NCBI GenBank assembly: GCA_021771185.1
Contig: JAETPN010000001.1
Span: forward strand, 192,366-256,365
Direction of reading: 5' to 3'
Origin: Bacillota bacterium
Lineage (GTDB): Bacteria > Bacillota_I > Bacilli_A > RF39 > UBA660
DNA: 64,000 nucleotides
The position numbers were made by a program, and so were the translations under genes. The notes beneath the pieces were generated by a model. The model was not told the DNA's origin, made no database searches, and saw nothing but the letters and a program-made list of their open reading frames with translations. Numbering within the stretch: position 1 is the stretch's first letter; the number at the start of each line of letters is the position of its first letter. Positions 17,486-27,815 of the stretch are shown in pieces.

Positions 17486-18010
17486 TTAATTTACATTATA
17501 TTCATATATTTTACAATTTTCGCAATTAAGTAATGAATGGTCAAATCCATTAAAATACCAATATATTGCCTTTGATACACCACCATGAGTAACCACTAAA
17601 ATGTTTTTATCCCTATATTTATCTTTTACTTCATTTAAAAATTCACTAACTCTTTTATATACAGATTTCATTGATTCTAATTCTGGATAATCAATTTCCG
17701 AATTAATTCCCCAAAAATCTTTCAAATTTAAATGATCGAAGGGAACTTTTTCATATATTCCCATATCACGTTCTTTTATTCTTTCATCGATAATAATAGG
17801 TATATTTTTATTTAAATCAAACAATTTTAATGTATGTTTTGCTCTTTGTATTGGTGAACAATAAATCAAATCAATATTCATATTGTTTAATTTAATTCCT
17901 AAATTAATAGCTTGTTCTATACCTGTGTTATTTAATGGTTCTTCTTCTGTTGCTATTATTCTATCTTTTCCCATATCTGTTTCGCCATGTCTAATTACAT
18001 ATAATTTCAT
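17486..18010 (-). CDS. Histidine phosphatase family protein (copy 2)
   Basis: A 174-residue phosphoglycerate-mutase-like phosphatase. The catalytic R-H-G-E is at residues 7-10, S-P-I-Q-R-A-K-H-T holds the conserved arginine near residue 60, E-R-D-M-G-I-Y-E the acid near 85-92, and V-V-T-H-G-G-V the second histidine. All four core residues are present, so it is probably active. The substrate is unknown; relatives act on sugar phosphates, nucleotides or cofactors. A second copy of the same length lies 26 nt upstream, so the two probably arose by duplication and then diverged strongly. Confidence 0.8.
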   Translation of the reverse strand: MKLYVIRHGETDMGKDRIIATEEEPLNNTGIEQAINLGIKLNNMNIDLIYCSPIQRAKHTLKLFDLNKNIPIIIDERIKERDMGIYEKVPFDHLNLKDFWGINSEIDYPELESMKSVYKRVSEFLNEVKDKYRDKNILVVTHGGVSKAIYWYFNGFDHSLLNCENCKIYEYNVN

Positions 18011-18036
18011 TTCATACCTCTTTAGTTATTCTATTT

Positions 18037-18561
18037 TTACAATTGATATTCTTTTATTTCACAATTTTTAAGACCTCTATTTAAAAACATTCCATCTTGC
18101 ATACCTTCAAAATACGCACTAAAAGCTTTTGATACTCCACTATGTGCAACAATTAAAACACTATGATAATTTTTTGTTTTTAATTCATCTAAAAATTCAA
18201 AAATTCTTTTAAAAAATAGTTTTATATCTTCACTTGTTCCATATTGAATGGTTGAATTATAATTCCAATATTCATCACGATTTGTAACTTCTAATGGCTT
18301 ACCAGTTAAATCACCACAACTTCTTTCTGTAATTCTATCATCTATTATAATTTCTTTATTGTTTGAATTTATAATGTTTGCCGTATGTTTTGCTCTAGTT
18401 AATGGAGAAGATATTATAATATCAAAATCTATTTTTCTAATTCTATTTTTAAGTTCTATAGCCTGCTTTATTCCTAATTCGGTTAAGTCTTCATCTGCTC
18501 CATTATATTGACCTAATGCATTATGTGGAACTTGTCCATGTCTTACAATATATACTTTCAT
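18037..18561 (-). CDS. Histidine phosphatase family protein (copy 1)
   Basis: A 174-residue relative of the downstream phosphatase, with R-H-G-Q at 7-10, S-P-L-T-R-A-K-H-T, E-R-S-C-G-D-L-T-G and V-A-H-S-G-V. The core His-Arg-Glu-His set is complete. The replacement of RHGE by RHGQ and of THGG by AHSG suggests a different substrate from copy 2. It is the first gene of the island unit. The segment just upstream carries direct repeat copy B, with 12 codons (starting M-D-N-N) that mimic the start of the deoxyribosyltransferase-like gene. Confidence 0.8.
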   Translation of the reverse strand: MKVYIVRHGQVPHNALGQYNGADEDLTELGIKQAIELKNRIRKIDFDIIISSPLTRAKHTANIINSNNKEIIIDDRITERSCGDLTGKPLEVTNRDEYWNYNSTIQYGTSEDIKLFFKRIFEFLDELKTKNYHSVLIVAHSGVSKAFSAYFEGMQDGMFLNRGLKNCEIKEYQL

Positions 18562-20741: not shown

Positions 20742-22079
20742 ATGAAAAAATTAAGTATTCTAGCTGGAAAAAGTGTTTTATTTTTAGGTGATAAAATGCA
20801 TCGTGGGAGTAGTTTACCTGGAGCAGTTGCTTTAAAATTAGATAAAGAACTAATGAAAAAAATTGTTCTTCCTAAAAAAGTAATTGCGGTTACTGGAAGT
20901 TGTGGGAAAGGTTCTACCTCAAAAATGATCGCAGAGGTTTATCAAAAACTAGGTTATAAAGTCGCACATAACTATCGTGAAGGGAACTTAGCTTATGGGG
21001 TTATGACAACACTTATTGAATATTCTAATTTAAACGGTGTCATGGATGCGGATGTTTTAGTTCTAGAAGTAGATGAACGATATACAAAACTAGTCTTTCC
21101 AATTATCAAACCAGATGTTGTTGTTATTACCAATATTAGTAGAGATCAACCACCAAGGCAAGGTCATTTTGACTTAGTACTAGAAGATATCAAAAAAGCC
21201 CTTACAGAAGATATGCATCTTATTTTAAATGCGGATGATCCTTATTTACAAAAAATAGTTTTAGATCAAAAATTTAAACAAGTCTCTTATTATAGTTTAG
21301 AGAAAAATAAATATTCAACGAAGACAAGTCTTTGTGGAAATTTAAATATGACACACTGTCCTAAGTGTCATCAACCCCTTACCTATGATTATTATCAATT
21401 TGAAGCAATTGGGGCTTATCATTGTTCGAAGTGTTCTTTTAAAACACCAAAGAGTATCCATCATGGAACAAAGATGAATTATGAAAAACGTGAACTTACG
21501 ATTGATGATACCTATCAAGTAACGATCCCTTATGACACTTTATATTGTGTTTATAATACCCTCGCAGCTTTTACAACCCTTTCAGTAGAGGGGATTGATC
21601 CTCATCAAATTTCAGAGGCAATTAGTGAAAGTAGTTATAATAAAAAGAATTTTAATCACTATCAATATAAAAGCCGTGAAATTTATGTTTTAAATACCAA
21701 AAACGAAAATAGTTCAACGTTCAATCATGCTCTTATGTTTTTAAATCAACATAAAAAGAACTTAAAAACGATTGTGATTGGATGGGATGTCATTAGTTTA
21801 CGCTACGCTTATAATGATCTTTCATGGCTCTATGATATTGATTTTGAAGTTTTAAAGAAACATGATATTGATCGAATTATTTGTCTTGGAATTAATCGAT
21901 ATGATCTTGCGACACGTTTAAAGTATAGTGGAATTGATACTAAAAAAATCTTTGTGTATGAGGATTTAAAGAAAGCTCAAGGTTCTATTCAAAAAAGAAC
22001 AAAGGGTGATGTTTATGCGATTATCAATTTTAATTATATGGATGATTTCAACAAAATGATGAAAGATGGTGAAAAATAA
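20742..22079 (+). CDS. murT: Lipid II isoglutaminyl synthase subunit MurT
   Basis: Mur-ligase-like subunit that, with GatD, amidates D-Glu of lipid II to isoglutamine. The ATP site V-T-G-S-C-G-K-G-S-T-S-K is near residues 48-59. The MurT-specific zinc ribbon (C-P-K-C...C-S-K-C) interrupts the central domain near 203-232, and the C-terminal DUF1727 domain carries N-D-L-S-W-L-Y-D-I-D-F-E. I chose the ATG at 20742 (GGAG 8 nt upstream) over the in-frame TTG at 20727. The length of 445 aa is normal. Its stop overlaps the gatD start by 1 nt (TAATG). Confidence 0.93.
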   Translation: MKKLSILAGKSVLFLGDKMHRGSSLPGAVALKLDKELMKKIVLPKKVIAVTGSCGKGSTSKMIAEVYQKLGYKVAHNYREGNLAYGVMTTLIEYSNLNGVMDADVLVLEVDERYTKLVFPIIKPDVVVITNISRDQPPRQGHFDLVLEDIKKALTEDMHLILNADDPYLQKIVLDQKFKQVSYYSLEKNKYSTKTSLCGNLNMTHCPKCHQPLTYDYYQFEAIGAYHCSKCSFKTPKSIHHGTKMNYEKRELTIDDTYQVTIPYDTLYCVYNTLAAFTTLSVEGIDPHQISEAISESSYNKKNFNHYQYKSREIYVLNTKNENSSTFNHALMFLNQHKKNLKTIVIGWDVISLRYAYNDLSWLYDIDFEVLKKHDIDRIICLGINRYDLATRLKYSGIDTKKIFVYEDLKKAQGSIQKRTKGDVYAIINFNYMDDFNKMMKDGEK

Positions 22080-22810
22080 TGAACTTTACAATCGCACATT
22101 TATATTATGATTTACTTAATTTATATGGTGAAAATGGAAATGTAAAAGTCTTAAAAAAACAACTCGAAGATCAAGGAATTAAAGTAACTATTAAATTTTT
22201 AACCATCGATGATGAATTAAATTTCAAAGATTATGATCTTGTTTATATGGGTATGGGAACGGAAGAACATCAAGCTCTTGCATTAAAACATTTAAGAAAG
22301 TATAAGGATCAAGTAAAAGACATGATTGAAGAGGGAAAATTTTTCATTGTAACTGGAAATTCCATTGAATTATTTGGAAAACAAATCATTACCAAAGAAG
22401 ACAAGAAACTTCGTGGATTAAATATATTCAATTATGAAGCAAAACAAGAAGATTTTAGAATTGTCGATGAAGCTCTTTTTAAGTGTGAATTTACAAAGAA
22501 ATATATTTTAGGATTTCAAAATCAGCGTAGTGTTTTATTAGGAAATGAATATCCTCTCTTTCGTGTAATCAGTGGTACTGGAAGTTATCCAAATGCTTCC
22601 AGTGAAGGGATTCATTATAAAAACTTTTATGGAACTTATCTTGTAGGTCCCCTTCTTGTACGTAACCCAGAGTTTACAAGATATCTGCTCAGGAAAATGA
22701 TTAGTACGAAGAATAATCGTTTTCAAATTAAAAAATTTAATTTCATTGTTGAAAATAATGCTTATAATGATTTTTTAGAGCATCATTACAAAGAATTTAT
22801 AACAAAATAA
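22079..22810 (+). CDS. gatD: GatD-like glutamine amidotransferase lacking its catalytic dyad
   Basis: Class I amidotransferase-like subunit coupled to murT. The fold is intact (L-Y-Y-D-L-L-N-L-Y-G-E-N-G-N at 8-21, G-S-Y-P-N-A-S-S-E-G at 168-177, G-T-Y-L-V-G-P-L-L at 185-193). However, the nucleophile motif, C-G-G-Y in active GatD, reads T-G-N-S at 92-95, and the catalytic histidine of Y-L-H-G-P is Val189. Both members of the Cys/His dyad are therefore absent. It may only support MurT, leaving ammonia to come from elsewhere. The length of 243 aa is normal and the frame is intact, so this is not a decayed gene. Confidence 0.85.
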   Translation: MNFTIAHLYYDLLNLYGENGNVKVLKKQLEDQGIKVTIKFLTIDDELNFKDYDLVYMGMGTEEHQALALKHLRKYKDQVKDMIEEGKFFIVTGNSIELFGKQIITKEDKKLRGLNIFNYEAKQEDFRIVDEALFKCEFTKKYILGFQNQRSVLLGNEYPLFRVISGTGSYPNASSEGIHYKNFYGTYLVGPLLVRNPEFTRYLLRKMISTKNNRFQIKKFNFIVENNAYNDFLEHHYKEFITK

Positions 22811-27066: not shown

Positions 27067-27417
27067 TTAAGATTCTACAAATTTATAAGTATAATTTTCA
27101 TTTATATTTTTTATAATAATTTTCGTATCTTTCGCAAATGGTTTTTTTGTTTTTGGATTTTCTAAATCTTGTTCAACATAATTTCCTTGCATTAAATCTT
27201 CTAACGTAATAGTCACAGTCTTTCCATGGTCTGGTAAAGAATCAATATGATCTGCAGCCCAATTTTTGGCAGCATCTTCAATATTTGAAACTTGTACTTC
27301 ATAGGCCTGTTCCCCTGAACGATTGACACTTCGTTGTACGGAAGGAATTACTACTAAAGAAATGGCCCCTAAAACAATAATAACCGCTAAAAGCTCTACT
27401 AATGTAAATCCTTTCAT
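27067..27417 (-). CDS. Type IV prepilin-like / pseudopilin protein (second of pair)
   Basis: A 116-residue protein with a class III signal: M-K-G-F-T-L-V-E-L-L followed by a hydrophobic helix to about residue 28, so prepilin peptidase should cut before Phe4 and methylate it. The rest is a small globular domain. I chose the ATG at 27417, which overlaps the stop of the upstream prepilin (ATGA), over an ATG eight codons earlier. It may be a ComGC-like competence or minor pilin; no assembly ATPase or peptidase gene is in the window. Confidence 0.8.
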   Translation of the reverse strand: MKGFTLVELLAVIIVLGAISLVVIPSVQRSVNRSGEQAYEVQVSNIEDAAKNWAADHIDSLPDHGKTVTITLEDLMQGNYVEQDLENPKTKKPFAKDTKIIIKNINENYTYKFVES

Positions 27418-27815
27418 GAACTTAATCCCACCTTTATACATGTAAATGAATTTGTAGATCCTATTTCTCCATTTGAAAATTTGTGTTTTCCTTCATATTT
27501 TAAACGAACTGCTGTTTTACTAACATCATAAGGTGTTCCAGTTTCAGCATTCTTAATAGGTTCATTTAACAATCCTTCATCAACTAATACTTCTAATGTT
27601 GTACAATAATACTTACTTCCAGATGCAGTAGTTAAATCCGCATGATCTAAAAAATAATTTTCAGCGGCATCAAAAATAAGTGTATTGGTATTTTCATTAA
27701 TATTATTTCTAGCATCTGTAATTTGATTGATAATTGATGGGAATGCAATAACCGCAATAATTCCAAGAATTACAATCACACCTAATAATTCCACTAACGT
27801 AAACCCTCGTTTCAT
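27414..27815 (-). CDS. Type IV prepilin-like / pseudopilin protein (first of pair)
   Basis: A 133-residue protein with M-K-R-G-F-T-L-V-E-L-L-G and a hydrophobic helix to about residue 30, the prepilin cleavage motif. The mature part has two cysteines (Y-Y-C-T-T and F-T-C-I-K) that could form the disulfide loop seen in some minor pilins. It is coupled to the second prepilin by an ATGA overlap. An independent duplication is likely, since only the N-terminal helices are closely alike. Confidence 0.8.
   Translation of the reverse strand: MKRGFTLVELLGVIVILGIIAVIAFPSIINQITDARNNINENTNTLIFDAAENYFLDHADLTTASGSKYYCTTLEVLVDEGLLNEPIKNAETGTPYDVSKTAVRLKYEGKHKFSNGEIGSTNSFTCIKVGLSS

Follow-up and report, generated by a model that had tools for sequence, protein, structure and literature searches.

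In the MurT/GatD enzyme pair, which is essential in several pathogens, GatD has been described as an indispensable glutaminase. The murT-gatD locus analysed here, in a 64-kb window (the whole stretch of DNA, 64,000 nucleotides), raises the question of what such a pair does when its GatD has lost both catalytic residues, and of how MurT would then obtain the group that it attaches.

The murT-gatD locus and the GatD active site

The window carries murT, encoding a Mur-ligase-like partner, at 20742..22079 on the plus strand (445 aa, ATG start at 20742), followed by a gene for a GatD-like, putative pseudoglutaminase at 22079..22810 (+). The first-pass annotation, made from the letters alone, had described gatD as intact and coupled to murT through TAATG, and this held: the reading frame is unbroken (243 aa), and the murT stop codon TAA shares its A with the gatD start. 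In Pfam searches, GatD matched PF07685 (GATase_3, 3.9e-16), and MurT matched PF08353 (MurT_C, 1.1e-19) and PF08245 (Mur ligase middle domain, 1.1e-13). MurT also matched S. aureus MurT (7q8e_A, 3.7e-45), and among solved structures both proteins come closest to the MurT/GatD complexes from S. aureus, S. pneumoniae, and S. pyogenes. Both proteins score far below the NCBIfam cut-offs: GatD reached 134.3 bits against 400 and 136.5 against 450 for the GatD equivalogs (NF045636 and NF052463), and MurT reached 183.9 bits against 800 (NF045635). The gene neighborhood gave no operon partner beyond murT; the pairs lie next to pheST or next to a convergent cluster that resembles murG-murB-ftsQ. ATP-grasp genes were found near a few pairs only, too rarely for interpretation. 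Elsewhere in the window, two tandem histidine-phosphatase-like ORFs of 174 aa each (17486-18561, minus strand) carry RHGET and RHGQ motifs, and two overlapping prepilin-like ORFs (27067-27815, minus strand) have N-termini reading GFTLVELL.

The nucleophile elbow aligned to that of S. aureus GatD without gaps (TICGGYQFLGK in S. aureus, VTGNSIELFGK in the window). The segment T92-G93-N94-S95-I-E-L-F-G100 (22352..22378, +) replaces I-C-G-G-Y-Q-F-L-G and places Gly93 on Cys94, Asn94 on the oxyanion residue Gly95, and Glu97 on Gln98; at the position of Gly60, the second oxyanion residue, the window GatD has Met59. In the second motif, Y187-L-V189-G-P191 (22637..22651, +) replaces Y-L-H-G-P, so that Val189 occupies the position of His189. 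The absence of a cysteine from the TGNS elbow and the exchange of the catalytic histidine for valine, both noticed in the first-pass annotation, were borne out by this alignment. The glutamine-capturing Arg128 is kept (Arg127 in the window GatD). A sequencing or assembly error was considered and rejected: orthologues from independent assemblies, with 73-75% identity, lack the two residues as well.

An AF2 model of the window GatD, built with a 22-row alignment (A1), had a pLDDT of 94.2 and a pTM of 0.91; an alignment-free model (pLDDT 44) was discarded. In a Foldseek search, the top PDB match of the model was S. aureus GatD (6gs2_A, TM-score 0.89, E 6.5e-25). The model and the PF07685 match agree with the earlier remark that the fold motifs are retained; the GatD fold and its MurT-facing residues are kept despite the dead site.

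Distribution and evolution of GatD without Cys94 and His189

In 193 sampled genomes of the same family, a GatD relative was present in 83, almost always adjoining murT, and 110 gave no match. Intact motifs (CGGxQ or CGAYQ together with YLHGP) were found in only four family loci (L070, L072, L074, and L075); the remaining loci have TGN[SA]xELFG and YL[ILV]GP or closely similar motifs. When GTDB species genomes were scanned, another 80 loci were retained. Every one of them came from uncultured bacteria (Bacilli, Firmicutes, Tenericutes, Mycoplasmatota, etc.); among those that bear their own name, Candidatus Pelethosoma merdigallinarum is the nearest (73%). Class- and phylum-level draws contributed further forms, both active and dead, from other families. 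Removal of duplicates left 163 distinct GatDs, all of the same class. Both Cys94 and His189 are missing from 138 of these and present in 25, and no sequence has one without the other. In the Cys94 column, the 138 dead sequences have glycine (136), serine (1), or a gap (1). As read from the alignment, the clade-wide glycine is the same change as that in the laboratory mutant C94G of S. aureus (PMC3266927), and the clade amounts to a naturally occurring C94G. It differs from the mutant in that the change arose naturally and is fixed in a clade, the histidine and the oxyanion residues are lost as well, and MurT is also changed. The catalytic residues have thus been lost permanently across many uncultured bacteria, most of which live in the gut. 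In the open-licence literature we found no published clade of dead GatD; the MurT/GatD papers cover active enzymes only.

A maximum likelihood phylogeny was calculated from the joined GatD and MurT sequences after removal of the active-site and motif columns (quick search without bootstrap). A single branch (SH-aLRT 99) separates the intact pairs from the dead forms, which gives a positive answer to the suggestion in the first-pass annotation that TGNS plus valine might mark a clade. Two types stand out among the dead pairs: type A lies on one side of another branch (SH-aLRT 95), and type B is found in two places. The simplest account would be one loss, followed by diversification. Two deep-branching type-A pairs (L196 from genome G245 and L066 from G074) have the elbows FTGCAMELLGK or MTGITYEILGK, SRKY in MurT, and the P-loop GSNGKT; the L196 GatD has a cysteine one residue past the Cys94 column. 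These two pairs may be intermediates, and the order of the changes could show there.

The type-A alignment bears on whether GatD could still be a glutaminase that uses other residues. Some features would fit such an enzyme: the Tyr17 loop is kept, and position 128 is still arginine in 109 of 124 type-A GatDs. However, both oxyanion glycines are changed in type A (Gly60 to Met, Ser, or Ala; Gly95 to Asn), no cysteine column reaches 40%, and the only histidine columns above 40%, 7 and 71, belong to neither the elbow nor the His189 loop. Together these three observations make a glutaminase mechanism very unlikely. The serine at position 95 was considered as a replacement nucleophile and rejected, because serine (60) and alanine (57) are about equally frequent there in type A. 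A conserved replacement Cys or His near the site, which the first-pass annotation had named as one finding that would speak against its reading, was not among the type-A columns. In S. aureus GatD, the exchanges C94A, C94G, C94S, and H189A each abolish glutamine use (PMC5871853, PMC3266927, PMC6113224). The alignment, the predicted structure, and these mutants all support the original suggestion of a pseudoglutaminase: the GatD described here is almost certainly not a glutaminase, and residual activity through other residues seems to us very improbable.

Estimates of dN/dS for 16 close pairs were 0.05-0.15 for GatD and 0.04-0.19 for MurT. The entropy of type-A GatD is 0.52 bits in the elbow and 0.70 in the His189 loop, as compared to 1.83 for the whole protein; since both values are far below that of the whole protein, the old active site is not drifting but is conserved in a new form. 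The many family genomes without a GatD match (110 of 193) would be expected if the pair were a decaying relic heading for loss. We give this very little credence, however: the low dN/dS of GatD, the conservation of the old site, whose columns rank with the least variable ones, the wide diversification after a single origin, and the retention of murT and gatD together all argue against decay. A dead GatD is thus retained under strong selection, and therefore the nitrogen, or whatever group is attached, must come another way. This natural clade of a dead but conserved GatD separates the scaffold role of the subunit from the catalytic one, reveals the residues that couple MurT and GatD, and offers a ready test of MurT on ammonia versus amino acids.

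The MurT partner and its altered motif

MurT of the window keeps the P-loop Lys56, Asn82, Asp111/Glu112, Asp135, Arg139, and Lys320/Asn323, as well as Asp365, Asp359 (the equivalent of S. aureus D349, which faces the GatD site), and the four zinc-ribbon cysteines (CPKC and CSKC). Among type-A MurTs, K59, N85, E108, D110, E111, D134, R138, K315, D349, and D355 are kept in at least 98% of the sequences; loss of K59, N85, or D112/E113 kills S. pneumoniae MurT/GatD (PMC6085368, Table 2).

One motif is changed. The window MurT reads SLRYAYND where DNAAD/DNxxDG was expected, and the S-x-R-Y segment from Ser352-Leu353-Arg354-Tyr355 to Asp359 (21795..21818, +) replaces the DNxxDG of MurTs that have an active GatD. 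A DNxxDG-type motif is present in all 23 MurTs paired with an intact GatD and in none of the 134 paired with a dead one (Fisher p 4e-28, counting sequences and not independent events). In type A, the serine of S-x-R-Y is found in 119, the arginine in 115, and the tyrosine in 118 of 120 MurTs, and the loop is two residues longer; S-x-R-Y is absent from all 23 MurTs with an active GatD. The type-A P-loop is mostly GSSGKGST. Type-B MurTs keep GTNGKT/S and have a different, less regular motif. Pairs of both types coexist in several genomes, e.g., G063, G144, G027, and G100. In G144, a type-B MurT (L079, G144:C1:6800-11600) is fused in one frame to an N-terminal ATP-grasp-like domain; the fusion is reminiscent of cyanophycin synthetase, which has an ATP-grasp plus Mur-ligase layout.

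Compared to the lipid II isoglutaminyl synthases (S. aureus SA1708/SA1707, S. pneumoniae 6fqb, S. pyogenes 9sq9), the pairs described here share gene order, fold, zinc ribbon, ATP-site residues, interface residues, and the Asp349 equivalent. They differ in a GatD that lacks Cys94, His189, and both oxyanion glycines, and in a MurT that lacks DNxxDG, has S-x-R-Y, and usually has GSSGKGST instead of GTNGKTTT. These differences warn against giving such pairs the name lipid II isoglutaminyl synthase when uncultured gut bacteria are annotated.

In S. aureus, MurT Asp349 contacts GatD His189, and the DNxxDG motif has the GatD site on one side and the ATP site on the other (PMC6113224). The S-x-R-Y loop of type A runs into Asp349, which is kept in 118 of 120 sequences though its histidine partner is gone; Asp355 is kept in all 120. 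Asp355 and Asp361 of S. pneumoniae MurT form a negative gate to a proposed ammonia channel (PMC6085368). By the register of the two sequences, these gate residues correspond to Asp349 and Asp355 of type A.

The change in MurT could mean that the enzyme has become an amino-acid or other-amine ligase acting on the usual carboxylate, a reaction in which no glutaminase is needed and GatD serves as scaffold only. The arginine of S-x-R-Y would bind the incoming amino acid by its carboxylate, like DNPR in MurE. MurE recognizes its amino acid via the D(D,N)P(N,A) region, and this parallel, together with the location of DNxxDG between the two active sites, points in the same direction, as does the coincidence of GatD death and DNxxDG loss in 157 of 157 pairs. 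The coexistence of type-A and type-B dead pairs in one genome suggests different donors or acceptors, and the retention of Arg128 in most GatDs also fits. The association of the two losses rests on essentially one evolutionary event, however, and an hhalign comparison of MurT to MurE from the same genome did not reliably align the two motifs. A literature search for Micrococcus-type glycine addition gave nothing on point. We regard the conversion of MurT to an amino-acid or amine ligase as a possible but somewhat unlikely explanation. In its fuller form, which we hold just as tentatively, a one-time, clade-wide conversion would have produced ligases that act on the peptidoglycan stem or another lipid-linked carboxylate, types A and B would differ in specificity, and the dead GatD would be their shared scaffold.

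Nitrogen supply and acceptor

With moderate confidence, we favor a MurT-GatD heterodimer in which the pseudoglutaminase GatD would be an obligatory scaffold and free ammonia the nucleophile used by MurT. GatD would be catalytically dead and the obligatory structural partner of MurT; MurT would convert a carboxylate, most likely the alpha-carboxyl of D-Glu in lipid I/II, to an acyl phosphate; and free ammonia would take the place of the ammonia that GatD releases from glutamine. The negative gate of MurT (Asp359 and Asp365 in the window) may admit ammonium. In S. aureus, neither subunit works alone, GatD is still required with NH3, and the C94G mutant loses glutamine use while its NH3-dependent lipid II amidation at pH 8.5 is unaffected (PMC3266927). 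Human CPS1 has Ser in place of its catalytic Cys, uses only ammonia, and retains the inactive glutaminase domain (PMC4655335). The present pair likewise would combine an inactive ancestral glutaminase with ammonia use; CPS1, in contrast, is an unrelated synthetase with the Cys-to-Ser change within one chain, whereas here the glutaminase is a separate subunit that has lost both residues. Archaeal MurT-like proteins (PMC11915815) are likewise MurT-type ligases that lack an active GatD, but there GatD is absent and here it is kept.

The genome that contains the window (~94% complete; parts may be masked) gave no match to glutamine synthetase (PF00120). Its GlmS, which starts with MCGIIG, keeps the catalytic cysteine. 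Three PF00117 proteins were found in this genome, all of them resembling hydrolases of the peptidase-C26 type, with Cys and His intact; none of the PF00117 matches was a class-I amidotransferase of the PyrG, GuaA, or CarA type. Because the catalytic residues of GlmS and of the PF00117 proteins are intact, glutamine-dependent chemistry has not been lost generally. The behavior of C94G, the precedent of CPS1, the missing glutamine synthetase match, and the intact GlmS are among the reasons for favoring free ammonia. The first-pass annotation had proposed free ammonia, a different amidotransferase, or another product. The first of these is best supported and the third is possible; the second found no candidate beyond the three hydrolase-like proteins.

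Several observations count against the ammonia model. S. aureus MurT/GatD does not use ammonia at pH 7.5 (PMC3266927), and the glutamine-capturing Arg128 is retained in most type-A GatDs. The MurT motif change and the double dead pairs (A and B) are not explained by free ammonia alone; a role of MurT as amino-acid ligase would explain the coordinated motif change, whereas the evidence for ammonia does not.

Seven Mur-ligase proteins were found in the window's genome, which we read as MurC, MurD, two adjacent MurE, MurF, a MurF-like protein, and MurT; MraY is also present. Since MurC through MurF and MraY are present, lipid II would be the natural acceptor in this genome, and the D-Glu alpha-carboxyl of lipid I/II the most likely target. 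Seven family genomes with dead pairs (G011, G021, G043, G058, G077, G083, and G161), six of them 92-95% complete, had no Mur-ligase middle domain other than that of MurT. This absence would fit an acceptor other than lipid II, either another lipid-linked or a cytoplasmic carboxylate, with the wall role left behind. We consider this improbable: the window's own genome has the complete set MurC, D, E, and F, and the seven genomes have MraY and several transpeptidases, so that lipid-linked precursors may persist, perhaps via scavenging. The possibility that these relatives are wall-less was dropped for the same genes. Incomplete precursor synthesis combined with muropeptide scavenging has been proposed for these orders (PMC10868615). 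The Mur ligases may also sit in masked stretches. The sequence of G083 was read nearly completely, and no MurB, MurC-F, or Ddl turned up, but 144 kb are masked (N); murG is followed directly by an FtsQ-like gene, where relatives have murB in between. G155 and G191, congeners of some of the Mur-ligase-poor genomes, have MurE. The seven genomes may thus reflect either real loss with muropeptide scavenging or masked sequence.

Two further features of the Mur ligases were observed in genome G000, the one that contains the window. The adjacent MurE-type ligases (L092 and L093, G000:C37:42688-45445) differ in their motifs, one having DNPR, as in meso-DAP-adding MurE, and the other DDPH; the latter may add another amino acid. 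Several relatives of G000 also carry two close MurE genes. A 536-aa MurF-like ligase whose N-terminal part is membrane-like (L094, G000:C17:13552-14121) is located beside ddl, and an ordinary second MurF is found at C5 of the same genome.
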